Source: Candidatus Thiodiazotropha sp. (ex Monitilora ramsayi)
GTDB lineage: Bacteria > Pseudomonadota > Gammaproteobacteria > Chromatiales > Chromatiaceae
DNA: 64,000 bases
Direction: 5' to 3'
Assembly: GCA_025655595.1 (NCBI GenBank)
Contig: JAHXIO010000011.1
Location: 310,001 to 374,000 of the forward strand
The notes beneath the pieces were generated by a model, which was given only the letters and a program-made list of their open reading frames with translations, did not search any database and was not told where the DNA came from. Both the position numbers and the translations under genes were made by a program. Positions 5,070 through 15,889 of the stretch are shown here, in pieces. Position 1 is the first letter of the stretch, and the number at the start of each line of letters is the position of its first letter.

Positions 5070-5419
5070 GCTATCATCTTCAGCGGAGTCGACAATGTGG
5101 AAAATGATTAACTCTCTATCAATTAAGTTGGTAACCCCTTGAGGTAAAGGTCGCAGGAAATAAAGAGGCTGCCCGATAAATACGAAAAGCCTCAATTCTT
5201 CAATCACTTAGTAGCAACCTAATCAAATATTCGACCTTCGGGCTCATGAAAACCAGGAAGGATAAAATCGTATGGGCACGCGGGTACAGTATTTTCGATA
5301 ACTGCCACATCGATATAAACACATGCTGCACCCGAGATCATGAGACCTCGCATTAGTCCCGCGTCTCCCGGGTTTTTTATTCTACGGCCGTGAAGCTGCA
5401 AAATCCTGTTTCGAGCAGC
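5070..5419. other. Convergent intergenic region
   Basis: This 350-bp stretch lies between the DCC gene and the end of the OmpA-like gene. A 60-codon minus-strand frame (5219-5401) containing MRGLMISGAACVYIDVAVI is open but has no clear ribosome-binding site and no family I recognise; it may be a remnant or chance. Confidence 0.35.
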
Positions 5420-6001
5420 TCACGACAAGGGTCTGAACTGCACCCGCCGATTGACCGGATTGCGAGGATTAGCACGGTCGTATGGCTCACTCTCCCCCTT
5501 ACCAATTGTAACCAGGCGGCCGGGTTCGATGTTGAACCGGCTGGTGAGATAACGTTTGATCGCGCGTGCCCGCCGCTCCGAAAGGTATTGGTTATAGACT
5601 AACCTGCCGACGGTGTCGGCATGGCCCTCGATAACGATGCGTTTACCGGCTGAGCGATCCAGGCGCATCATTCGGCCGACGGCATCTAACATCGGCAGAG
5701 AATCCGGCAATATCTTGACCGAATCAAATTCAAAATTGATCATCATGCCGAACATGTTCTGTACCGGTTGCCGGTCAGGTTTATCGTTAAACACAATGCC
5801 ACGATAACGCGGCTGAAACAGGATATCGGCGATTTCTTCCGGTTGTGGTGCTTCATAGTAGATAATGTTAGGTGAATCTGCTTGTGCCGTACCGGTCATC
5901 ATCAGGACGTAAAGCAAACATTTTCTCATGAATAATCGCTGATATGAACGACTCAGATAGTGACAGAAAAAGTGTGCAGTTTGTGTGAAATACCGGTTCA
6001 T
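5420..6001 (-). CDS. OmpA-like C-terminal domain protein
   Basis: Last gene of a six-gene minus-strand operon, 14 bp after the CsgG-like lipoprotein gene. The C-terminal 110 residues form an OmpA/MotB-type peptidoglycan-binding domain: FEFDSVKILPDSLPMLD, then IVIEGHADTVGRLVYNQYLS, ERRARAIKRYL and a final NPVNRRVQF. An N-terminal signal-like segment, MRKCLLYVLMMTGTAQADS, begins at residue 25. The ATG at 6001 has a strong AGGAGG eight bases upstream, so it is kept, although translation from 5929 would give a more ordinary signal peptide. Likely role: anchoring the secretion or surface structure encoded by the operon to peptidoglycan. Confidence 0.85.
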   Translation of the reverse strand: MNRYFTQTAHFFCHYLSRSYQRLFMRKCLLYVLMMTGTAQADSPNIIYYEAPQPEEIADILFQPRYRGIVFNDKPDRQPVQNMFGMMINFEFDSVKILPDSLPMLDAVGRMMRLDRSAGKRIVIEGHADTVGRLVYNQYLSERRARAIKRYLTSRFNIEPGRLVTIGKGESEPYDRANPRNPVNRRVQFRPLS

Positions 6002-6015
6002 GACATTTTCCTCCT

Positions 6016-7677
6016 TTACTGTATTTCAAACTTTATCTGGCGTCTGAGCGGCACGATATCGGTCGACGATTTGTATATGTTGTACAGATCAACAAGCGAA
6101 TCAACTTTGCGTCGATAAATCTTCTCAAGCCGGGCCAAGGATAGCGGCTGTAGACTTTTCTCTTTCAATTCATGTGGCATGCGTTCCTCAATATCTTTAT
6201 AGGACGCCATGCACAGCACCTTCTCCGTCACCTGTCTCTGTTCCAGTCGAATGGTAAATGGATCGTTGCCTGGAATCCGTATCCTGCTCCCGGCGTCGAT
6301 TCGGCTGGAAGGCCGGTACCGGTTGGGAAAGATTTTTACGATTTCACCAGACCCTGGCTGATAGAAACAGTAGAGATGACCGTTAACGGATATCTCCGCC
6401 TGCAGCGTTACCGACTCACCCAGTCGATAGACTGGTCGTGTGCCATGTTCCGTATTCAGACTCAGCTCAAGTGGTGTTATCTGTCCGGCTTCAAGTCCGG
6501 TGTTCTGGTGTATAGTCTTGGTTTTGGGGCGGCCATCTTCATAGATGGCATAGATGTCATCGACCTGTACGGTTTTTGTCAGCAGGTTGCGGTGCCGGTT
6601 GTCGATGGGTGTCGGATCGGTGATCAGGCTGTAGTAGAGCATAAAATCAAGTCTGCTGTCGGCAATATGCCCTTGCTCTTTTTTGTAAAGAGCGATCGCC
6701 GTTCGCAACGGATTGCTGTTTTTAGCATCAACCGGACCTGCGTAGAGGCCCATGGCGTAGAGCTTGGCCTGAACAAATTTTGTCAGGCCCTCCCGGCTCA
6801 GGGACTTGTACCAGTCCTGGACCTGACTCTGCACCAGGGTACTGGTGGTTTCGATATCCAGACATTCCCAATAGGGCACCTGGGTCAGCCTGCCCATCAA
6901 TTCGATCGCGCCCAATTCGACCAGGGTACGCACGGCGTGGTGGAGGCCTTCGCTTTCTGTGAAATCGACCTGGAAGACGGCACCGAGCTTTTTTATCGTT
7001 CCGCTCAGATCCAACCCCTTGCCCTTGCGGGCGACGGCGATGGAATTGCTGGACGTGATGCCGGGCAATATCTGCAGGTTTGAGACCAGGCCCATATTCA
7101 TGTCCAGGGTAATGATCGAGGCGATATTGTCTTTGCTGGCGCTGAAGCTGAATGCCTCGGCGACCGCCAGCCCCCCGCTGACCTGTGTCTCTATCACGCC
7201 GCGGTCAACCTGCGTGATTCCACCGCGAATAAAAAAATCGGGTGAGGTAAAGTTTTTCAACCGGTGCAGGCTGTGGAAGCGTGTAATGTCTTCCAGGTCC
7301 TTTCCAAGCGCGACAAACTTTACCGCGCGGCTTTCAATGGACATCTGCGACAGCGCGCTGATCAGCATATCCTTGGTGCCGGCCAGTACCACTTCCGTAC
7401 GGTCCGGAATATCTTGCGTGCCGATCTTAAGATCGCTGATCCGGTAACGCAGGAAAAGCTTATCCATGCAACGCAATGATTCACTGAAGTTGGTGATGGC
7501 ACGTTGCGGTGCGGCATTCGGTGTCGCGACGATCCGGACCTCATTGGTTGCCTGTGTTTCCCGAATTTTCCGCTTCTCCTCCAGGTTGGCGCAGGACGAT
7601 AGCAGACCTGTTACGGTGATAAGCACAACGCAGGCGAGGCGCTTGACGGGGTTTTGCTTTTTGTCGTTATCAAACAT
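6016..7677 (-). CDS. CsgG/HfaB-like outer-membrane lipoprotein with DUF4384-type domain
   Basis: A 553-residue lipoprotein (signal VVLITVTGLLSSCANLEE, lipobox LSSC). Residues about 50-270 resemble the CsgG family: an F(F)IRGGITQVDRG strand like the 'DFILTGGI' of CsgG, an ITLDMNMGLVSNLQILPGI strand, then SNSIAVARKGKG and a helix with LVELGAIELMGRL. CsgG is the ring-shaped outer-membrane channel that exports curli subunits. A middle region (KLYAMGLYAGPVDAKNSNPL) looks like a peptidoglycan-binding-type helical repeat. The C-terminal part (LGESVTLQAEISVNGHLYCF, followed by a PSSRIDAGSRIRIPG strand pair) resembles DUF4384. It sits among repeat proteins and an OmpA-like protein, so I infer it is the export channel for them. 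CsgG homology is by pattern, and should be tested by profile search. Confidence 0.75.
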   Translation of the reverse strand: MFDNDKKQNPVKRLACVVLITVTGLLSSCANLEEKRKIRETQATNEVRIVATPNAAPQRAITNFSESLRCMDKLFLRYRISDLKIGTQDIPDRTEVVLAGTKDMLISALSQMSIESRAVKFVALGKDLEDITRFHSLHRLKNFTSPDFFIRGGITQVDRGVIETQVSGGLAVAEAFSFSASKDNIASIITLDMNMGLVSNLQILPGITSSNSIAVARKGKGLDLSGTIKKLGAVFQVDFTESEGLHHAVRTLVELGAIELMGRLTQVPYWECLDIETTSTLVQSQVQDWYKSLSREGLTKFVQAKLYAMGLYAGPVDAKNSNPLRTAIALYKKEQGHIADSRLDFMLYYSLITDPTPIDNRHRNLLTKTVQVDDIYAIYEDGRPKTKTIHQNTGLEAGQITPLELSLNTEHGTRPVYRLGESVTLQAEISVNGHLYCFYQPGSGEIVKIFPNRYRPSSRIDAGSRIRIPGNDPFTIRLEQRQVTEKVLCMASYKDIEERMPHELKEKSLQPLSLARLEKIYRRKVDSLVDLYNIYKSSTDIVPLRRQIKFEIQ

Positions 7678-7694
7678 ACTGGGAATTCCCTCAG

Positions 7695-8021
7695 CTACTG
7701 CTCGCAGTAATTGATGACATCGCCAGTGATAATGACATCCCGGTCTCCAGACAGGTTACCGCTGGATACAATCGTGTTGCCAAGATTCAGATTGCATCCC
7801 AACTGCTCGATGCGGCCAATACCGATGTTCTGGAATTCACGTGATACTGCATTCTCGTTCTCAATCCGGGCGGTCAATCCCTTGAGGCGTACCTGGTTGA
7901 TCTTATTCATCGCGTTGTTCGGCAAATGGGTCGGTTGGTTGATATCGCCGGCATACACTACCTGTAACGGACAAAGCAGGAGTAACAAGACCAAGGCTAA
8001 TATTTGTGGTGTGCGTTTCAT
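7695..8021 (-). CDS. Small secreted protein of the repeat-protein operon
   Basis: A 108-residue protein with a clear signal peptide (MKRTPQILALVLLLLLCPLQ, cleavage after VVYA). The mature part has NQVRLKGLTARIENENAVSR and ends GDRDVIITGDVINYCEQ; two cysteines are seen, one in QLGCNLN and one near the end, which could form a disulfide. The frame opens at 8030, but GAGAGG is directly abutted to that ATG, whereas the ATG at 8021 has it at nine bases, so 8021 is preferred. It lies between a 36-residue-repeat protein and the CsgG-like gene. No family recognised; it could be a minor subunit or an accessory like CsgE/CsgF or HfaA. Confidence 0.7.
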   Translation of the reverse strand: MKRTPQILALVLLLLLCPLQVVYAGDINQPTHLPNNAMNKINQVRLKGLTARIENENAVSREFQNIGIGRIEQLGCNLNLGNTIVSSGNLSGDRDVIITGDVINYCEQ

Positions 8022-8041
8022 GACTAACATCCTCTCGATAT

Positions 8042-8992
8042 TCAGTTGCCGACATTACCGATATTGACTTCATTGCGAACACTGAACGGACCTGCACCGA
8101 TGGCAAATGCAGCCAGATCGCCGGTACTGACATTGATGCGAGCGCTACCGCCGACCGAGGTATTGATCACATTACCCACGTGCAATTTTGAATACTGACC
8201 CACGCCGATTGCAGCGGATGCCAGGTTGCCCGTATTGACATTGATGCTGGCATCGCCACCGACACTGCTGTTCTTTATCGAACCTACGGCCACATCGGAA
8301 TAGACACCGGCACCTATAGCCGCGCTGATGACGTTTTCGGTGGCAACATTGATATCTGCGTTACCGCCGATACGGCTGTTCTTGACGGCTCCTATGTCGG
8401 TTTCACTCAGCGCTCCGGCACCGATTGCGGCACTGACCACATTACCGGTAGTCACGCGGATCTCGACATCACCGCCAACATCGGCATCACGCAACGCACC
8501 GATATTGATATCGCTGGCGGCACCCGCGCCGATCGCCGCACTGACGATATTCGCCGTGTTGACTTTGATATCCACATCGCCACCGACACCACTATCGACC
8601 ACCGAGCCAGCATTCACCCGACTGACGGTTCCAGCCCCGATCGCAGCACTGACAATATTGTCCGCCTGGATACTGATTTCCGTATCACCGCCGATATCAG
8701 CATCCTTCACTGCACCGACATTGATTTCGCTATTGGCCAATGAGCCGATCGCCGCACTGACCACGTTACGGGTACTCACATCGATCTGTACGCCACCTTC
8801 CACATCGCTGTCGATCACCGCGCCCAGTGCGACTTCACTACTGGTTCTGCTGCCGATTGCTGCGCTGATGACATTTTCGGTTTGTACGTTGATCTCGGCA
8901 TCCCCCTCTATCCGGCTGTCAGCGTGCAGGTTGAACGACGCCATAGCCCAGAGCAGACCGATTGAGGTCAGAAATCTGTCGCTAGCATTCAT
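8042..8992 (-). CDS. Secreted protein of eight 36-residue repeats
   Basis: After a signal peptide (SIGLLWAMASFNLHADS) the whole 316-residue protein is about eight tandem 36-residue units of consensus VGGDxxIxVxTxNVVSAAIG followed by AGAxSDxxIGAVKDAD. The alternation of hydrophobic and small polar residues, the invariant Gly-Gly and the AAIG core suggest a beta-solenoid or amyloid-like fold. The last repeat diverges (LAAFAIGAGPFSVRNEV), as expected for a cap. No cysteines are in the repeats. The stop codon of the GIN-like gene overlaps its start by four bases, so the two are translationally coupled. A paralogue with five repeats opens the operon. Function is inferred: a polymerising or surface-layer subunit. 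Confidence 0.85.
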   Translation of the reverse strand: MNASDRFLTSIGLLWAMASFNLHADSRIEGDAEINVQTENVISAAIGSRTSSEVALGAVIDSDVEGGVQIDVSTRNVVSAAIGSLANSEINVGAVKDADIGGDTEISIQADNIVSAAIGAGTVSRVNAGSVVDSGVGGDVDIKVNTANIVSAAIGAGAASDINIGALRDADVGGDVEIRVTTGNVVSAAIGAGALSETDIGAVKNSRIGGNADINVATENVISAAIGAGVYSDVAVGSIKNSSVGGDASINVNTGNLASAAIGVGQYSKLHVGNVINTSVGGSARINVSTGDLAAFAIGAGPFSVRNEVNIGNVGN

Positions 8993-9831
8993 GGTTGTCT
9001 CTCCTGTTGCCAGTCACCGATAGTCAGACGACCGTTTCGGTGTACGCGTGTAGATTCACGACGGTCTGCGGATGCCACGAACAGACGGGCATTGTCAGAA
9101 ACCGACAGATTCACATTGACAGCGTGGCCGCCAAACTTAACCTTGCTGTTGCCCGTGACATCAGCGCGCAAAGTCCGCACGTCGCCGGATTTAAGATCGA
9201 CTTTACTGTTGCCGGAAGCATTGATGTCGATGTCCCGGCTTACATGATCAATATTGATCCGTGCATTTTTGCCGACATCAAGACGGGCTGAAGAGATAGA
9301 GCCAGCCTCTATTCTTCCACCACCCTGCACATGCAATGAAGCCATGGTGTCTTCGATAATGGCCCTGCCACGGAAATCAATCAGTTCCACGGGCGTCCCA
9401 GTCGGTACGGTAATATTCAGGACCTGTGTCTGTTGTGGCTGGTTGTGCATCACCACCAGGCTGTTGCCGTCTATGACTGTGGTGCGACCGTTGATTGACA
9501 GGATGCTTCGGTTGTCACCTCCCCTGCCCGAGGTGATCACGGAGATATCGCCGTAGCCGGCTTGGGCCTTTTGTCGGATCAGCAGACTGTCTTCATGCTG
9601 TCTGATATCCAGCCTATCGGAAAGCGAACCGGTGCCGGTGTTGACAGAAATACCCGGCACGTCTGCAACAACGACATCCACCCGGGCCGAAAGATTTTCC
9701 AGCCGCAGCTTTTGCGCCTTGTATTGTTCACCGCCATAGGCCATCAACATGGTGGTCTCGAACAATCCAATAGATAACACGGCCAGGTAAAAGATCATGC
9801 CCTGTCTGGTAAGCGTGTAGACGTTAAACAT
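8989..9831 (-). CDS. GIN-like (DUF2807) adhesin-domain secreted protein
   Basis: A 280-residue protein with an N-terminal hydrophobic segment (MIFYLAVLSIGLFETTMLMAY) that could be a signal peptide or anchor. From about residue 120 it shows the right-handed beta-helix pattern of the head GIN/DUF2807 domain: SISSARLDVGKNARINIDHV, DIDINASGNSKVDLKSGD, DVTGNSKVKFGGHAVNVNLS, with the repeating 'asGnskvdl' strands. It ends in a polar strand, HRNGRLTIGDWQQERQP. GIN-domain proteins are usually exported and cell-surface-associated. It is the second gene of the operon, between the two 36-residue-repeat genes, with a four-base overlap to the downstream one. Confidence 0.75.
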   Translation of the reverse strand: MFNVYTLTRQGMIFYLAVLSIGLFETTMLMAYGGEQYKAQKLRLENLSARVDVVVADVPGISVNTGTGSLSDRLDIRQHEDSLLIRQKAQAGYGDISVITSGRGGDNRSILSINGRTTVIDGNSLVVMHNQPQQTQVLNITVPTGTPVELIDFRGRAIIEDTMASLHVQGGGRIEAGSISSARLDVGKNARINIDHVSRDIDINASGNSKVDLKSGDVRTLRADVTGNSKVKFGGHAVNVNLSVSDNARLFVASADRRESTRVHRNGRLTIGDWQQERQP

Positions 9832-9885
9832 GCGTGTATCCTCCTGAGATAGCGATTCCGCCCGCAGGGCGGAATCCTCACAGGT

Positions 9886-10500
9886 TCATTCAATACTGCC
9901 GATACTGACCTTGCTGGTGTTATCGCTGCCGATGGCGGCGCTGATGACATTGCCGGCCGTGACGTTGATATTGAGGTCCCCACCCACTTCGGAATCCTTC
10001 ACACTGCCGACCGATACTTCGCTGGTATTGCCATCGCCGATAGCGGCACTGATCACATTACCGGTATCCACGCTGATGCTTGCATCACCACCGAGTTCGC
10101 TGCCAACGATAGAACCGATATTGACTTCGCTGGTGTTATCGGAACCTATGGCGGCACTGATGACATTTTCCGTGTTGACGTCGATCTGTACGTCACCTTC
10201 AACCTCGCTATCCTTGACTGATCCGATGTTCACGGTGCTTTTGTTGTCTTCACCGATGGAAGCGCTGATCACGTTACCAGTGGTCACATCGATACTGACA
10301 TCACCGCCAATTTCACTTTCGGAAATCGAACCGATCGACACTTCACTGGTGTTGCCGTCACCAATGGATGCACTGATGACATTTTCGGTCTGCACGTTGA
10401 TATCCACGTCGCCGCCGACAGTGGAGTCGGCATGTCCGGTTCCGGCGCCCAGAATGAACAGCGAGAGCGCGGTGTAGATGGGGGTTAACTTCAGTTTCAT
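9886..10500 (-). CDS. Secreted protein of five 36-residue repeats
   Basis: First gene of the six-gene operon. After a signal peptide (MKLKLTPIYTALSLFILGAG, cleavage after GHA) it has five repeats of the same 36-residue type as the gene at 8042-8992, here more regular: VGGDVDINVQTENVISASIG then DGNTSEVSIGSISESE. Aspartates recur in the DGNTS/SDNTS turns, suggesting calcium-binding or solvent-exposed loops. The last unit stops short at KVSIGSIE. It has AGGAG seven bases before the ATG and a promoter-like element at 10559-10587. The regularity suggests it is the major repeat subunit and the eight-repeat paralogue the minor or nucleating one, by analogy with curli; this is inference. Confidence 0.85.
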   Translation of the reverse strand: MKLKLTPIYTALSLFILGAGTGHADSTVGGDVDINVQTENVISASIGDGNTSEVSIGSISESEIGGDVSIDVTTGNVISASIGEDNKSTVNIGSVKDSEVEGDVQIDVNTENVISAAIGSDNTSEVNIGSIVGSELGGDASISVDTGNVISAAIGDGNTSEVSVGSVKDSEVGGDLNINVTAGNVISAAIGSDNTSKVSIGSIE

Positions 10501-10883
10501 TCTTTATCTCCTGTTGCGAATTGACAAACTGACATGCAATAGCGATGTCTCGCTAAATGAGTGCCTTGCTTATCGAAAAAGGTTTAAAGAAAACGAAGAA
10601 AAAAATGTTTTTATATAATTCGTCTCTGATACGGAAAAAATGATGCAGGTGTTTAATGTCCGGTTTCTTTAATGCCTATTGCCATGACACTGACAACAAC
10701 GGATTGGTCTTGAATGGCACTTAGTTAAAGAGATTGGTTTCGCAATAGGAGGATACGTGTGGGTTGCAAATCTATATTGGTGGGGCGGAGCCCTGCCTCA
10801 CCATTGCGATGTAGGTATGAAGAGAAATTTCTCATATGACCCTACGATGTCTGCTTAAATCAGTACCACCATTCGGATCGGAT
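10501..10883. other. Intergenic region with the promoter of the repeat-protein operon
   Basis: The region between the repeat-protein operon and the caspase-like gene end is AT-rich. It holds the shared promoter-like element at 10559-10587 and, near 10780-10803, a hairpin GGTGGGGC-ggagccct-GCCTCACC that lacks a T-tract. No gene is seen. Confidence 0.5.
10559..10587 (-). promoter_or_regulatory. ECF-type promoter of the repeat-protein operon
   Basis: The minus strand reads TTAAACC, 16 bases, then GCACTC, the same 29-bp architecture as the two elements at 13015-13043 and 13077-13105. AACC followed by a T-run is shared by all three. The predicted start of transcription lies about 50 bases before the ATG at 10500. 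Confidence 0.6.
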
Positions 10884-12200
10884 CTATTTCATGGCATTCC
10901 CGTTTCGACGCAGGAAAACAAAATCACCACCCTCGTGACCGGCCTTGCGAATGTCCGCGTATTCAGGCGTTTGATCAGCGGTCAGAATAACTTTCCTGCG
11001 CAGTTCAGAAAACAGTTGTGCACCTTCGAGCACACCTGTGTTCTCCCTGAGTACTGTAAGAAAGGCATTGGCAAAAACGGAGTGCCCCCCGGAACCTGAG
11101 TCGAGTACAGGTTCGAGACCACCCGAAGTCAACGCAGTCCTGGAACGCTTGTGCGCAAGCCGCTTGAGTAACAGGGCCTGCTCCTGACCAAGAATAACGC
11201 CGCGGAAAGTCACCGATCTCGACAAGGTACCGGAGAAGCAAGAATCCGCAACCACAAGCACACGTGTGGCAGCCATACCGTTGAGCATGTCGGTAATATC
11301 GGCGGTTGAAAGCCAATTGGCGTAATTGTCTTTTTCGGCATCAACAGGCAGCCAGTATCCACGCTGTGTCGACTCATCCAGATAGCCATGCCCCGCGTAG
11401 TAGATCAATAGATTGTCTTCCCTTTTCAGTTTTTTTCGCAATTGGGACAAGGCCTGAAAGATTTTGTAACGGCTTGCATTGGTGAGTCGTGTCACCTGAA
11501 ATCCGTACTCGGACTCAAGCAGGTTTGATACCGCCTTCGCATCGCGCACGGCGCTCTTCAGTCTGTCGAAATCCTTGTATCGGTTGTTGCCGATCACCAG
11601 AGCATGAAAATCCCCCAGATCCAGTGAAGCAAGGGCCGGCTGTCGCGTCTCCTCCCAGTGCCCCGTGTCATAGCCGGACACCATGGCGGTCCGTTCGGAG
11701 GGCTGATGCCGGTTACTCAAAACCCGCCTGCAGGCTGAAAGGGCGTCATCTCCAGAAAGGGATGTACATTTAATGCGGTCAAGCTCATGCGTTACAGCAA
11801 TCCTGTGCTCTCTTTTCGGCGTCTGTCGACGTAAACCAAGGAATCGCTCCTCTTCCCAGTCGCTTTTGGCCATCAGCCTTGCGCGCACCAGCCGGGAATT
11901 ATCCTGATTGAAACGTAAACCGATATCGAACAGGATCATGGCCTGCTCATATCTGTGCTGCCGGATCAGCCGTTCGGATGCATCGAGCAGCATTTGCACC
12001 TGATGGCGATGGGTATACGCATACGCCTCGCAGGCCTGTCGTCCTGACTCTGTCGTTGAAGAGAGGCAGTCACGAAGCAGCTGCTGGTTTGCCGCGTAGG
12101 CGGTTGCCATGCAACAAAACCAAACCGCGAGGCAGAGCAGTGTTGCCACGCCTTTGGTTTCAATAGCCGTAACCATAGCCATCCCAGGGACGCGGCGCAT
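10884..12200 (-). CDS. Secreted caspase-fold (peptidase C14) protein
   Basis: A 438-residue protein with a signal peptide (LLCLAVWFCCMATAYAANQ). Residues 40-110 hold a helical region with a TPR-like flavour (HRYEQAMILFDIGLRFNQDN). From about residue 190 a complete caspase-like domain follows: FHALVIGNNRYKDFDRLKSA, NLLIYYAGHGYLDE with catalytic His271, and RVLVVADSCFSGTLSRSV with catalytic Cys321; the final block HSVFANAFLTVLRENTGV is the usual C14 strand-helix. It is therefore expected to be an active cysteine protease exported across the inner membrane. The gene overlaps the upstream lipoprotein gene end (12160), so they are one operon. The start is uncertain; 12176 or 12182 are alternatives. 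Target unknown; the repeat proteins or the anti-sigma factor are candidates by context only. Confidence 0.88.
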   Translation of the reverse strand: MRRVPGMAMVTAIETKGVATLLCLAVWFCCMATAYAANQQLLRDCLSSTTESGRQACEAYAYTHRHQVQMLLDASERLIRQHRYEQAMILFDIGLRFNQDNSRLVRARLMAKSDWEEERFLGLRRQTPKREHRIAVTHELDRIKCTSLSGDDALSACRRVLSNRHQPSERTAMVSGYDTGHWEETRQPALASLDLGDFHALVIGNNRYKDFDRLKSAVRDAKAVSNLLESEYGFQVTRLTNASRYKIFQALSQLRKKLKREDNLLIYYAGHGYLDESTQRGYWLPVDAEKDNYANWLSTADITDMLNGMAATRVLVVADSCFSGTLSRSVTFRGVILGQEQALLLKRLAHKRSRTALTSGGLEPVLDSGSGGHSVFANAFLTVLRENTGVLEGAQLFSELRRKVILTADQTPEYADIRKAGHEGGDFVFLRRNGNAMK

Positions 12201-12924
12201 TTTTATCTGTCAGATCAAAACGGTAGGCCCAGCTACCGCCGGGCAACCGTACCAGCCCCAGCAAGTACTTTTTACCCGCCGGCTGGTATGGAGGCTTTTC
12301 TTTATGCAGGCTGCGGGAGATATCGTTACGCAACTGAAGCAGGCCATACTCGTCAAACCGGTTGTCGACCCTGCCATCGTCATTGAGGTCCGCACCTTCA
12401 AGGGCGTGGTTGAGTACCTGTTCAAGTTGCTTCAACAACCGGCCCGATTCCTCATCTGTTGCGTTCTCGGCCAGCATTGCAATCTCGCCTGCCAGCCGCA
12501 GGCGATCCGAGACGCGGGACGCGCCTTCAGCGAAACGTGCCGACATACGAATCAGGTTATCGCTGGCATCTTCGGATTCCGCGGCGAACACCATATGATC
12601 GACCGAGCCATCGAGCGCCCGTATGGCGCCATAACCCAGTCCATCACCGCTTTCCCGATGGTCCGGATTCAATGCATGGACTACATTGGACAAATGACGC
12701 AAGCGACGCGGGGCATTCGCCTGGTTGTCGATTGCGGCTTTGGCGTTTTCCAGCGCAATACCGGTCTCCTTCTCGGCCACAACGAACAGGCCTTCCTGGC
12801 CGGGTGTATCCCGCCAGGCAGTCAATGAATGGCCGACGTGGGCGTGCGAAATCAGGGGCATCGCACGTGTACAACCCGTTACTGCAACAATGCATAAGAG
12901 GCAACAGATAGTTATTGATTTCAT
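12160..12924 (-). CDS. Lipoprotein of unknown function preceding the caspase-like gene
   Basis: A 254-residue lipoprotein, signal MKSITICCLLCIVAVTGCTR with lipobox VTGC. The ATG at 12924 is chosen over the longer open frame because AGGAGGAGTTT sits just before it and the signal peptide then begins cleanly. The mature part is mostly helical (LENAKAAIDNQANAPRRLRH, LLKQLEQVLNHALEGADLND) and contains an EF-hand-like loop, DLNDDGRVDNRFDEYG, that could bind calcium. The C terminus is glycine/tyrosine-rich (GYGYGY). No family recognised. It is the first gene of the lipoprotein-caspase operon controlled by the element at 13015-13043. Confidence 0.75.
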   Translation of the reverse strand: MKSITICCLLCIVAVTGCTRAMPLISHAHVGHSLTAWRDTPGQEGLFVVAEKETGIALENAKAAIDNQANAPRRLRHLSNVVHALNPDHRESGDGLGYGAIRALDGSVDHMVFAAESEDASDNLIRMSARFAEGASRVSDRLRLAGEIAMLAENATDEESGRLLKQLEQVLNHALEGADLNDDGRVDNRFDEYGLLQLRNDISRSLHKEKPPYQPAGKKYLLGLVRLPGGSWAYRFDLTDKNAPRPWDGYGYGY

Positions 12925-13014
12925 CGAGATAAACTCCTCCTTTAGATTCGCAACGCCGGACCATGTCAGGTATTTGCTCAAGACCTGCATAGCAACTTCA
13001 CTGGTTTCGGTCGT

Positions 13015-13043
13015 GAGTGCCCCGGTAATAAAAAAAGGTTCAA
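13015..13043 (-). promoter_or_regulatory. ECF-type promoter of the lipoprotein-caspase operon
   Basis: The minus strand reads TTGAACC, 16 bases, GCACTC. The AAAAGGTTCAAT arm at 13034-13045 is a perfect 12-base inverted copy of ATTGAACCTTTT at 13075-13086, which belongs to the divergent sigma-factor promoter. Confidence 0.65.
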
Positions 13044-13076
13044 TGGGGCGATAGCACCCGGCCTTTTGCACATTGA

Positions 13077-13105
13077 TTGAACCTTTTCACAGCTTCCGGG
13101 TACAC
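13077..13105 (+). promoter_or_regulatory. ECF-type promoter of the sigma/anti-sigma/subtilase operon
   Basis: The plus strand reads TTGAACC, 16 bases, GTACAC. It has the same 29-bp span as the elements before the two minus-strand operons, implying autoregulation by the ECF sigma factor encoded just downstream. Confidence 0.65.
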
Positions 13106-13185
13106 AGGGAGCAGGCATGGTGAGGAAATGAATCAAGGGTGTTATGTTAGCGACTCAGCAAATACTCTTTTCAGGAGGCGATTCG

Positions 13186-13773
13186 GTGGAGTCCCACATG
13201 GATCCTGACCTGACGTTGATCGAACGTGTGGCGCGGCAGGATAAAGCTGCTTTCAAAGTACTGTATAAAGCGTATTACCAACCGCTTTTCCATTTCCTGA
13301 TTCGCATGCTGAAACATCAGGATATCGTCGAGGAAGTTGTCGATGATGTCATGTTCACCGTATGGAAAAAGGCCGGCGACTTCCGCGGCAGGTCAAAAGT
13401 CTCCACCTGGATCATCGGTATCGCCTACCGCAAAGGACTGAAATCCTATAACCGAAAGCGAAGAGAGCCGGCAATGGATGATCTGGCGCAGCATACCGAG
13501 CGAATGCCGGGAGCGACGGATCAGATGCCAGACCACTTCCTGGAACAGCAGCAACTGACGGAGCAGGTGCAGAGCGGTCTGGATAGTTTGAGCGGCAACC
13601 ACCGATGCGTCATGGAACTCACCATGCTGGGCTACTCCTGTACCGAGATCGCCGATATCGTCGACTGCCCTGTCAATACGGTCAAGACACGTATGTTTCA
13701 CGCCCGTCGCCAGCTGAAGGACCATTTCGGACGATCGGAATCCTTTAACACACAGGCCAGAGGTGAAACGTGA
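13186..13773 (+). CDS. ECF-type RNA polymerase sigma factor
   Basis: A 195-residue sigma-70 family factor of the ECF type. Region 2 is AAFKVLYKAYYQPLFHFLIR followed by IVEEVVDDVMFTVWKKAGDF, and region 4 is GNHRCVMELTMLGYSCTEIA with the recognition helix in CPVNTVKTRMFHARRQL. There is no region 1 or 3. The frame is open from 13144, but a GTG at 13186 has a perfect AGGAGG seven bases upstream and is preferred. Its stop overlaps the start of the anti-sigma gene. I infer it drives the three operons that share the 29-bp element, including its own. Confidence 0.92.
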   Translation: MESHMDPDLTLIERVARQDKAAFKVLYKAYYQPLFHFLIRMLKHQDIVEEVVDDVMFTVWKKAGDFRGRSKVSTWIIGIAYRKGLKSYNRKRREPAMDDLAQHTERMPGATDQMPDHFLEQQQLTEQVQSGLDSLSGNHRCVMELTMLGYSCTEIADIVDCPVNTVKTRMFHARRQLKDHFGRSESFNTQARGET

Positions 13774-14441
13774 TGACAAGCCGAGAGTTGGATTCCTCAC
13801 ATCATGAGCAGTTTCTGAATCTGCCGTGGTACGTCAACGGTACCTTGTCGCCGGACCTCCGCGAACAGGTGCGTGCTCACATTGAAGCATGCCCTGTCTG
13901 TCAGAAGGAGGTCGAGACGTTAACGCGTATGCAAACAACCATGAATCGAAATCTGCACCCGGTCGATATCGATGAAGAGCGTCTGGAGCACCTGATGGCG
14001 CACATCGATCAAACCGGCAGGAAAACCGTCGGACCGGAAAGATCACATTTCTCCTTCAGTGCGTTGCAGTCGTTTTTCGCCGCCCTCTTTTCGCACAGAT
14101 TGGCCTGGGTTGCAGTCGCCCCGGTTGTGCTGGTGGCGCTGTTGCTGTTACGTTCGCCGATGCTGGAGCATGGGACGGTGCCGTATGAAACCCTCTCTTC
14201 CGGCGAACCGGTTGGCGAGCAGGCCATCAAGCTCGGTATTCGAGCCGATGAAGCATTGAACAGGGAGGAGATGTTACAGATTGTGACTGCCGATTTGCAG
14301 GGTATTACGCTGGCACCTGAAGCAAACGGGCACACAGTCTTGGTCTTGCCCGGCGATGTGTCACCGGAACAGGTAATCCGGGTCATGGATACACTGCGAC
14401 AACATCCCTCCATCCGTGACGTGGAGCGTGTCGTTGAGTGA
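13770..14441 (+). CDS. Anti-sigma factor with zinc-finger-like domain and I9-like tail
   Basis: A 223-residue single-pass membrane protein. The cytoplasmic N terminus has a ZAS-type anti-sigma domain, HEQFLNLPWYVNGTLSP with AHIEACPVCQKEVETL giving a H-x3-C-x2-C-like zinc site. A membrane helix follows (LAWVAVAPVVLVALLLL, near residue 115). The roughly 90-residue outer part ends HTVLVLPGDVSPEQVIRVMD, a strand-helix pattern much like inhibitor I9 (subtilisin propeptide) domains. The gene begins with GTG or ATG overlapping the sigma stop, so coupling is tight. The next gene is a subtilase, making a protease-anti-sigma relationship plausible. Confidence 0.85.
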   Translation: MMTSRELDSSHHEQFLNLPWYVNGTLSPDLREQVRAHIEACPVCQKEVETLTRMQTTMNRNLHPVDIDEERLEHLMAHIDQTGRKTVGPERSHFSFSALQSFFAALFSHRLAWVAVAPVVLVALLLLRSPMLEHGTVPYETLSSGEPVGEQAIKLGIRADEALNREEMLQIVTADLQGITLAPEANGHTVLVLPGDVSPEQVIRVMDTLRQHPSIRDVERVVE

Positions 14442-14513
14442 TCGACTGTGAAGAACCTAGAAAGCAGTTGATCTACATTTGTAGTGATCGGTATTTGAAT
14501 GGAGACGCCACGT

Positions 14514-15824
14514 ATGTCCAGTAAACTCGTCATGAAGACCCTGTGGCCAATGATTCTGTTTCTTGCAGGCTGCAGCATGACACCGGCCAGAATGCCAGCC
14601 GATCCCGCAATGATGGCAGACATGAGGAACCCGGCGGACAGTCGAATTTCCGAACAGAGCGGTGCGCGCATGTTTATCGCCACCATGACCGATGCCTCGC
14701 ACAGGGAACTGACTGGCGGCCGTCCCATCAATGCGATGAACATGCAGGGCTCGGTCGCTGCGCCTGCCGGCTATAGAAAATTTATCGACGAGATTCAGCA
14801 GCAATACGGCATCAGACAGGTCGCGGATTGGCCACTGACATCGATTGGAGTTCGCTGTCTGGTGTTCGAGGTCTCCGACACACAGGACAGGGAGAGTGTG
14901 ATCAGGGAGGTGGCGAAGCATGCACGTATCGAAACGGTCCAACCCATGCGGCACTTCGGGACACTGGGTAAAACCTACAACGATCCTTATTTTGAGCTGC
15001 AGCATAGTTACCAGAAAATGTCCGTTGCCTCCTCCCATCGTTGGGCCACGGGCAAGGGGGTCCAGGTCGCCATTATCGATACTGGCGTCGATGTGTCGCA
15101 TGAAGATCTCAAGGGGCAGTTCAGCGGCCATATGAACTTTGTCGATTCAAACGAGGAGGACTTTAGCCGGGATGTACATGGAACGGCAATCGCCGGGGTG
15201 ATTGCGGCGACTACCGGTAACGGCAAGGGCATGACCGGCATTGCACCCGACGCGCGCTTGTGGTCGATAAAGGCCTGCTGGTCAGCACGACCCGGAGATC
15301 TGTCCGCCCAATGCAGCACCTTCACACTGGCGAAAGCGATCAATTTCGCCGTTACCGGCGAGGTCGATATCATCAATCTGAGCCTGGCCGGCCCAGGGGA
15401 TGCCTTGCTGGAGCGTCTGCTGCAGCAGGCCATCAAACGCGATATTACAGTCGTCGCGGCCGTGGGGTCTGATCCCGGCCATAGCTTTCCCGCTTCGGTA
15501 AAAGGCGTGATTGCCGTCGATCAAAGCGAAAGCAAGAACAACGAAAAGGAGCATGTGCAAATCATGGGGAGTAATATTTTGAGCACACGTCCCGGCAATC
15601 AGTATGATTTTTTCTCGGGCAGTTCCTTTTCGACCGCTCAGGTGTCCGGTCTGGCTGCGTTGATCAGGGAACGCAAGCCGCATCTCTCCGCCGACACGAT
15701 GAAAGCGCTGCTTGCCCCAGACAGTACGCGTTACCGAGGAACTGTGACTGACAAGTCACAAAGCGTCAATGCCTGCCGCTTACTGGCCAGGCTGGCAGGA
15801 TCGCAGTGCGGGGATGGTGACTGA
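14514..15824 (+). CDS. Subtilisin-like serine protease lipoprotein (S8)
   Basis: A 436-residue lipoprotein (MKTLWPMILFLAGCSMTP, lipobox LAGC). A propeptide-like region follows, with RCLVFEVSDTQDRESVI, and then the S8 domain. The catalytic triad is visible: Asp189 in VAIIDTGVDVSHEDL, His222 in DVHGTAIAGVIA and Ser371 in GSSFSTAQVSGLAALI. The oxyanion-hole position, usually AAGN, reads VVAAVGSDPGHSFPAS, so the usual Asn is replaced. The ATG at 14514 is chosen because GGAG lies upstream. Third gene of the sigma/anti-sigma operon; likely anchored outside the inner membrane or at the outer membrane, possibly to process repeat proteins or the anti-sigma tail. Confidence 0.92.
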   Translation: MSSKLVMKTLWPMILFLAGCSMTPARMPADPAMMADMRNPADSRISEQSGARMFIATMTDASHRELTGGRPINAMNMQGSVAAPAGYRKFIDEIQQQYGIRQVADWPLTSIGVRCLVFEVSDTQDRESVIREVAKHARIETVQPMRHFGTLGKTYNDPYFELQHSYQKMSVASSHRWATGKGVQVAIIDTGVDVSHEDLKGQFSGHMNFVDSNEEDFSRDVHGTAIAGVIAATTGNGKGMTGIAPDARLWSIKACWSARPGDLSAQCSTFTLAKAINFAVTGEVDIINLSLAGPGDALLERLLQQAIKRDITVVAAVGSDPGHSFPASVKGVIAVDQSESKNNEKEHVQIMGSNILSTRPGNQYDFFSGSSFSTAQVSGLAALIRERKPHLSADTMKALLAPDSTRYRGTVTDKSQSVNACRLLARLAGSQCGDGD

Positions 15825-15889
15825 GTCAGTCAATGTCCCGGCATGCCTAGACCGGCCAGTTTCAATCATACGCCTTGACCTCTCTCAGC

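Follow-up and report, generated by a model that had tools for sequence, protein, structure and literature searches.

A candidate CsgG-type export module for 36-residue-repeat proteins in Candidatus Thiodiazotropha

The probable six-gene operon

Six genes on contig 3 of the 4.68 Mb genome of Candidatus Thiodiazotropha sp. (ex Monitilora ramsayi) encode two proteins built of 36-residue repeats, a lipoprotein related to the curli channel CsgG and three further proteins. They lie in a stretch of 64,000 nucleotides (GenBank assembly GCA_025655595.1, contig JAHXIO010000011.1, positions 310,001 to 374,000), here called the window, whose positions serve as coordinates wherever no other locus is named. 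An earlier interpretation, made from the letters and their open reading frames (ORFs) and here called the sequence-only reading, had proposed an undescribed export system at this place; all six ORFs were found on the minus strand, where it had located them. Signal peptides and lipoboxes, here and in the neighbouring genes, were judged by eye. The six genes are the following:

10500-9886, minus strand: repeat protein 1, 204 amino acids; signal peptide and five 36-residue units
9831-8989, minus strand: GIN-domain (DUF2807) protein, 280 amino acids
8992-8042, minus strand: repeat protein 2, 316 amino acids; signal peptide and eight 36-residue units, the last degenerate
8030-7695, minus strand: small secreted protein, 111 amino acids (108 if the ATG at 8021 is used)
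7677-6016, minus strand: CsgG-like lipoprotein with a peptidoglycan-binding-like part and DUF4384, 553 amino acids; lipobox LSSC
6001-5420, minus strand: OmpA-domain protein, 193 amino acids

Since the gaps between successive genes, from 10500 to 5420, measure only 54, -4, 20, 17 and 14 nucleotides, the six genes likely form a single operon, as had been claimed. The proposed domain identities were borne out by Pfam: (i) OmpA, with an expectation value (E) of 2.3e-17; (ii) DUF4384 (PF14326), with E 2.1e-16 and 60.2 bits, over the gathering cut-off of 27; and (iii) GIN/DUF2807, with E 1.4e-6, this gene being the only DUF2807 match in the whole genome (E up to 0.001). The peptidoglycan-binding part of the CsgG-like protein reached E 0.046, below the cut-off. 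The small protein, for which the start at 8021 is more likely than that at 8030, has two cysteines flanking a short C-terminal stretch, and its relatives adjoin the CsgG-like gene in other loci. The OmpA-domain protein, a predicted peptidoglycan anchor, has an internal start at 5929 which precedes a signal-peptide-like stretch. A scan for promoters and terminators returned 3 promoter-like sites against 7.5 expected.

The repeat proteins and the CsgG-like lipoprotein

Beyond the signal peptide, both repeat proteins consist of abutting units only. When each protein was compared with itself, a peak appeared at a lag of 36 residues, with 62% identity for repeat protein 1 and 52% for repeat protein 2, and 0 of 300 shuffles scored as high in either case, which rules out chance repeats and agrees with the two secreted proteins made of 36-residue units that had been described. 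Weaker signals were present at lags 18 and 54; the GIN and OmpA proteins, used as negative controls, had no 36-residue period. The five and eight units are in register, with a spacing of 108 nucleotides in the DNA. Between units of repeat protein 1, the proportion of differences is 0.55-0.89 at synonymous sites (pS) versus 0.22-0.31 at nonsynonymous sites (pN), and the ratio dN/dS between same-genus orthologues is 0.04-0.07 for repeat protein 1, 0.10-0.13 for repeat protein 2 and 0.10-0.11 for the CsgG-like gene. The high pS, the lower pN and the low dN/dS indicate that the repeats are old and maintained by purifying selection. Two relatives gave a weak period test (113 of 300 shuffles as high for the first repeat-like ORF of locus L037; 1 of 300 for L029a).

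The AlphaFold2 model of repeat protein 1, obtained from six sequences, has a predicted local distance difference test (pLDDT) of 89.9 overall and of about 96-98 over the units, each of which contributes three main strands. On this model the repeats are predicted to form a beta-solenoid, perhaps with one coil per unit. The beta-solenoid expected by the sequence-only reading is thus predicted, at a pLDDT of about 97 over the repeats, and the opposite outcome, a prediction of disordered and non-secreted repeats, did not occur. A sequence search of the Protein Data Bank (PDB) with the repeats gave 0 matches. The Pfam family TetR_C_45 matches the repeats with 25.0 bits, below its cut-off of 27; this match and similar sub-threshold ones in relatives look like composition artefacts.

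The lipoprotein was studied through 22 aligned family members, namely the window protein and those of 21 of 22 relative loci, with matches counted at E up to 0.1. Under this threshold, NCBIfam HfaB matches 17 of the 22 members (best 1.6e-6), and the Pfam families CsgG, DUF4384 and PG_binding_1 match nine (best 0.0015), 17 and 12, respectively. A family profile of the N-terminal domain, run against 60 proteins, detected ten HfaB proteins at E 2.6e-13 to 0.037 (five of them below 1e-10), and the same profile gave 8e-8 to 8.8 for eight CsgG proteins. In profile-profile comparison, the family scores 90-95% with CsgG, versus 0.1-0.2% in reversed-profile controls, and the alignment runs through both hairpin regions with no large deletion; no alignment was obtained with a set of weaker Pfam CsgG matches (0.6-1.7%), two of whose 12 rows are wrong-strand ORFs. 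A PDB sequence search with the family returned two chance-level matches.

Regarding the fold, a Foldseek search with the predicted structure placed CsgG or CsgG-containing curli complexes, including the membrane-bound form of CsgG, in the first 19 PDB positions (best E 2.7e-7, probability 1.00). A tree of 56 domains (39 family members, 10 HfaB and 7 CsgG) resolves three separate groups with support values of 100/99, 98/96 and 100/99, under a warning from the tree program about long branches meeting. Because the family, fold and tree results point the same way when combined, they support the assignment of the window lipoprotein to a third group of the CsgG superfamily. The earlier description of a CsgG/HfaB-like lipoprotein fused to a DUF4384-type domain is upheld by the weak HfaB matches, the family profile and the Foldseek ranking.

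Distribution and possible mobility of the module

The surroundings of the CsgG-like gene were compared in 42 loci: the window, 21 of the 22 relative loci, two Azospirillum plasmids and 18 of 33 places from a survey of 398 genomes (same-genus orthologues account for three of the 42). With no protein selected by eye, 77 of the 1668 ORFs lying on either strand up to 6 kb from the CsgG-like gene are significantly periodic, against a single one, with lag 47, among 582 distant ORFs. Most of the former (66 of 77) have a lag of 35-39; 50 are on the strand of the CsgG-like gene, 45 of these at lag 35-39. Three of these 45 look Sel1-type by eye (two in L097, one in L098), Sel1-like repeats also having a 36-residue period. 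Other-frame shadows of true repeat genes account for several more on this strand and for most of the 21 opposite-strand ORFs at lag 35-39, so that ORF counts overstate the number of independent genes; the locus count is unaffected, with repeat ORFs in 22 of the 42 loci on the same strand, in L095 on the other strand, and in none of the remaining 19.

As for the other components, an OmpA gene occurs near the CsgG-like gene in 27 of the 42 loci, the small protein in 24 (its model was built from ten of these, and four matches have E above 1e-7), a caspase-like gene in 14 (at distances of up to about 9 kb) and a GIN homologue in 10, three of them same-genus. With ten OmpA genes over the cut-off in the genome, the chance of finding one within 6 kb is about 2.5%. 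All six components are present in eight loci (the window, L021, L022, L023, L096, L097, L098 and L100). The window's gene order is confined to the three same-genus loci. Therefore, the search for the same six-gene order that had been suggested succeeded in two same-genus genomes (L021 and L022) and failed beyond them, where five loci (L023, L096, L097, L098 and L100) have another order or strand and the others hold smaller subsets.

The link between repeats and CsgG-like gene was also followed with a repeat profile built from 14 other loci, with no window sequences. Among 477 window ORFs, the two repeat proteins alone fell below E 1 (2.8e-32 and 5e-10), and nothing fell below E 0.2 in ten HfaB loci or in seven CsgG loci, the latter covered for about 1.5 kb on each side. 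Of 398 Pseudomonadota genomes, 19 have a CsgG-like match with E below 1e-50 and ten have the repeat; all ten are among the 19. The 1e-50 cut was chosen by the authors: 27 genomes match at 1e-8, the remainder being partial matches, several to the DUF4384 part only. Repeats and CsgG-like gene share a contig and lie a few kb apart in nine of the ten; in genome G133, a fragmented assembly, they are on different contigs. Without the three sampled genomes that had supplied units, the overlap is seven of seven, with a hypergeometric probability of 4e-11 when kinship is ignored. This association, together with the CsgG superfamily relation, agrees with the parallel to curli and Hfa export that the sequence-only reading had drawn.

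The gene set extends beyond the six genes first described, to eleven in total. The additional genes, and the block as a whole, are the following:

10884-12200, minus strand: caspase-like (Peptidase_C14) protein, Pfam E 5.2e-24; signal-like N-terminus
12160-13071, minus strand: lipoprotein-like protein with no Pfam family; first gene of the leftward run
13144-13773, plus strand: sigma factor of the extracytoplasmic function (ECF) type, Pfam Sigma70_r2 6.8e-11 and Sigma70_r4_2 1e-7; divergent from the operon
13770-14441, plus strand: anti-sigma-like protein, Pfam zf-HC2 1.4e-7; one hydrophobic stretch (by eye)
14499-15824, plus strand: subtilase (Peptidase_S8), Pfam 2.9e-34; lipobox
5417-15830, no strand: whole block, with edges from blastn; common to two same-genus genomes and absent at the empty site of a third

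The caspase-like protein carries the His/Cys motifs YYAGHG and DSCFSG. Its gene is overlapped by the lipoprotein gene for 41 nucleotides, and the pair lies upstream on the operon's strand, 383 nucleotides separating the caspase-like gene from that of repeat protein 1.

The CsgG-like gene was found in three of the 22 genus genomes searched, and in the three the genes form one block of 10-11 kb which includes the caspase-like, lipoprotein, ECF sigma, anti-sigma and subtilase genes. The closest named relative at the locus is a metagenome-assembled genome (MAG) of Candidatus Thiodiazotropha, with 88% identity in the CsgG-like protein. In genome G005 the insertion site is empty (L143, about 6851-8800), with a single copy of a 202-bp sequence and no block. 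In genome G018 the eleven genes together occupy this site, on about 10.9 kb of DNA between two direct copies, 202 bp long and 90.6% identical, of a neighbouring gene's end (L144, about 5145-5346; L015, about 10212-10413). To judge from these sequences, the arrangement in G018 is an insertion with duplication. The window shares one flank with this site, and genome G019 carries the same genes at a different place. No integrase was recognised among the eleven genes of the block. Because the genes are present or absent together in G005, G018, G019 and the window, they appear to act as one unit; within this genus, such block-wise behaviour connects the export genes with the sigma and anti-sigma genes, the subtilase and the caspase-like protease. 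A candidate bactofilin gene lies close to the insertion site (L143 5932-6510; L144 3995-4573).

Some observations made in other loci can be added. In five loci the CsgG-like/OmpA pair is accompanied by a second small secreted protein, recognisable by eye from a common CWQ-x-G motif; none was seen in the window block:

L043 10442-10798: CWQ-x-G small protein
L097 8476-8796: CWQ-x-G small protein
L099 4332-4643, reverse strand: CWQ-x-G small protein
L100 7798-8103: CWQ-x-G small protein
L101 8644-8982: CWQ-x-G small protein

Genome G151 has a second place with 36-residue repeats (contig C47, 46655-47280), its CsgG-like gene being on contig C38. In a Sneathiellales MAG, a 784-amino-acid ORF of 20-residue repeats, not of the 36-residue kind, lies near the CsgG-like gene (L031 12485-14839) and is perhaps another type of cargo. 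Two repeat ORFs found close to more distant CsgG-like genes (L110 1516-1884 and L111 11453-11812) have periods of 49 and 47 residues.

Known systems, proposed mechanism and meaning

Curli is the model for the export of unfolded repeats and for open-ended solenoid stacking (PMC10192328). The block resembles it in (i) the CsgG fold; (ii) the predicted beta-solenoid of the repeats; and (iii) the tolerance of the repeats to great sequence change. It differs in the length of the unit, which has 36 residues (35-39 in relatives) as opposed to 23 +/- 5 in curlin (PMC10192328), and in the curlin core Q-x-G-x-x-N, whose count is 0 in both window repeat proteins. The distinction from the 22-residue CsgA repeat that the sequence-only reading had made is thereby confirmed. 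Pfam gave no curlin match in the minus-strand proteins of the block (E up to 10), and no CsgE or CsgF among its eight minus- and three plus-strand proteins, the rest of the genome not having been searched for these two. Repeat length, the missing motif and the Pfam result for curlin lead to the rejection of curli proper. Curli surveys (Dueholm et al., PMC3521004; Sleutel et al., PMC10192328) used curlin repeat models with a minimal 22-residue motif, and they would probably miss the window repeats because of the 36-residue unit without the Q-x-G-x-x-N core. In Thiotrichaceae, two repeat proteins (L035 1431-1721, with 39-residue units; L036 378-659, with 35-residue units) contain this core twice each, a possible hint at kinship, or a bridge, between the curlin and the 36-residue repeat.

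HfaB is one of the two nearest known families, and the Hfa system of Caulobacter (HfaABD) shares with the block a CsgG-superfamily lipoprotein beside secreted surface proteins; the surface location of HfaA and HfaD depends on HfaB (PMC6707917). In contrast, the window family forms a tree group separate from HfaB (98/96 and 100/99, with long branches), and the block adds the peptidoglycan-binding-like and DUF4384 parts and the OmpA partner. Kinship to HfaA was rejected, as the small-protein family and the repeat units reached 0.1-0.3% in profile comparison with three HfaA-like proteins picked by position and motif. Kinship to HfaD was likewise rejected, given the blank repeat profile in the ten HfaB loci; HfaD-like ORFs are seen by eye in several of nine. 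Fap of Pseudomonas also offers likenesses: an amyloid repeat of Greek-key/solenoid type, the presence of a cysteine protease gene, and FapC as the top, non-significant fold match. Nevertheless, the FapF pore is a trimeric barrel, and flexible linkers join the three imperfect repeats of FapC (PMC12822426), whereas the pore candidate of the block is CsgG-like and its repeat units abut. Finally, one gene of the block has the domain of the GIN (DUF2807) surface proteins, here linked to a CsgG-like gene; a paper on DUF2807 in Porphyromonas gingivalis (PMC10949514) contains no occurrence of CsgG. By the features tested, the block is neither curli nor Hfa and may work like them.

The reading we prefer, with a probability of roughly two in three, is that the block encodes a peptidoglycan-tethered CsgG-type pore which exports beta-solenoid repeat proteins to the cell surface. 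The repeat proteins, the GIN protein and the small protein would enter the periplasm by means of their signal peptides. The CsgG-like lipoprotein would form an oligomeric ring in the outer membrane, with transmembrane hairpins in the manner of CsgG, and its peptidoglycan-binding-like and DUF4384 parts, together with the OmpA protein, would tether this ring to the cell wall. The repeat proteins could then traverse the ring unfolded and, once outside, adopt a beta-solenoid fold (three main strands per turn) and stack end to end into a fibre or a surface layer. Repeat proteins 1 and 2, the small protein and the GIN protein might be its major, minor, nucleating or capping parts, an assignment which is speculative. 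From their linkage, the ECF sigma/anti-sigma pair may switch the block on, and the caspase-like protease and the subtilase may process or police its parts.

Several results weigh against this reading. The profile search of 6016-7677 against CsgG gave a divided answer: Pfam CsgG (PF03783) gives no match to the window protein (E up to 0.001 in its own genome; up to 10 in hmmscan) and matches nine of the 22 family members; HfaB (NF037935) matches 17 of the 22 and gives the window protein 16.1 bits and E 0.005, short of the curated cut-off of 300 bits. A CsgG-family match is therefore found by family and fold, and missed by Pfam CsgG alone. The model of the lipoprotein is middling (pLDDT 70.6, falling below 50 in the first hairpin region; predicted template modelling score 0.49) and its TM-scores against CsgG are modest (0.41-0.53 by target, root-mean-square deviation 8-14), for which reasons the outer-membrane export pore has predicted status only. 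The hairpin regions show little beta-alternation (mean z 0.9 and 1.1), and the related folds HpaA (rank 20), FlgT and PelC appear lower in the Foldseek list. Regular repeats can lead AlphaFold2 to overconfident models, and a Foldseek search of the PDB with the repeat model gave nothing significant: FapC ranks first (E 0.024, probability 0.06), above beta-helices and two CsgA structures. The component models were built from the same loci, so that their E-values are not independent. Moreover, 19 of the 42 loci gave no repeat by the period test, and nine of the 19 strongly CsgG-like genomes gave none by the profile, so that other or undetected partners are possible for part of the family.

Part of this evidence could be read in other ways. 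It is conceivable, if unlikely, that export takes place and no fibre is made, the repeats being short solenoid anchors which hold exopolysaccharide at the mouth of the pore, as HfaA and HfaD of the Caulobacter holdfast do. More relatives match HfaB than CsgG (17 and nine of 22, at the same threshold and with different libraries), the motif T-x-[FY]-S-x-x-L-x-C is common to the family and HfaB (by eye), and HfaA and HfaD are, as mentioned, HfaB-dependent surface proteins. Yet neither the repeat units nor the small protein are like the three HfaA-like proteins, the repeat profile is blank in the ten HfaB loci, and no polysaccharide synthesis gene was recognised among the eleven genes of the block; besides, regular open-ended solenoids are apt to stack, as in curli. 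A more doubtful possibility is that the CsgG-like protein is a poreless envelope scaffold comparable to FlgT or PelC, with the repeats staying in the periplasm or leaving by another route. The low confidence in the hairpin region, the weak alternation, the modest TM-scores and the presence of FlgT, PelC and HpaA below CsgG in the Foldseek list would fit a scaffold. What speaks for a channel instead is that CsgG, unlike the weaker Pfam CsgG set, can be aligned with the family across both hairpin regions, and that the repeat genes track the CsgG-like gene across the phylum sample.

Far less probable than either is that the caspase-like protease forms the core of a conflict or cell-death system, in which the repeat proteins would act as substrates or sensors. 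The caspase-like genes of 14 loci, up to about 9 kb from the CsgG-like gene, and the ECF sigma, anti-sigma and subtilase genes which travel with the block in three same-genus genomes can be cited in its favour. However, 28 of the 42 loci have no caspase-like gene in the stretch examined, versus 27 which have an OmpA gene, and an envelope location is suggested by the signal-peptide or lipobox-like N-termini (by eye) of the eight minus-strand proteins.

Leaving these rivals aside, the evidence supports a real and conserved module of the CsgG-superfamily export type, with its own class of repeat. A broader claim, for which the odds seem even, is that the tethered pore described above represents a third branch of CsgG-type secretion in Alpha- and Gammaproteobacteria (beta groups included). 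This branch would have (i) its own cargo, i.e. fibres of three-main-strand solenoids with units of 35-39 residues, free in sequence and fixed in length and in the G, A-x-G and I-G positions; (ii) a pore clamped to the wall by fused and partner domains; and (iii) in Thiodiazotropha, the form of a movable, self-regulated block. No published description of the module was found in the literature searched, outside which lie many subscription papers and all preprints, and the claim that the system was undescribed holds within that scope. The same literature contained nothing relevant joining CsgG with DUF4384, CsgG with GIN/DUF2807, or Thiodiazotropha with curli, and its DUF4384 papers were off topic by title.

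To our knowledge, curli and Hfa are the only CsgG-type exporter lineages with known cargo. A third lineage with another repeat length would point to a general role of the pore in the export of solenoid proteins in unfolded form. It would also add candidate functional amyloids of a new class, concealed by the DUF4384 label, which is the annotation of the family protein on two Azospirillum plasmids. Cultivable species (Azospirillum, Thiocystis) offer testable partners and, in the symbionts of lucinid clams, the module would represent a candidate surface structure, carried by three of the 22 genus genomes searched.

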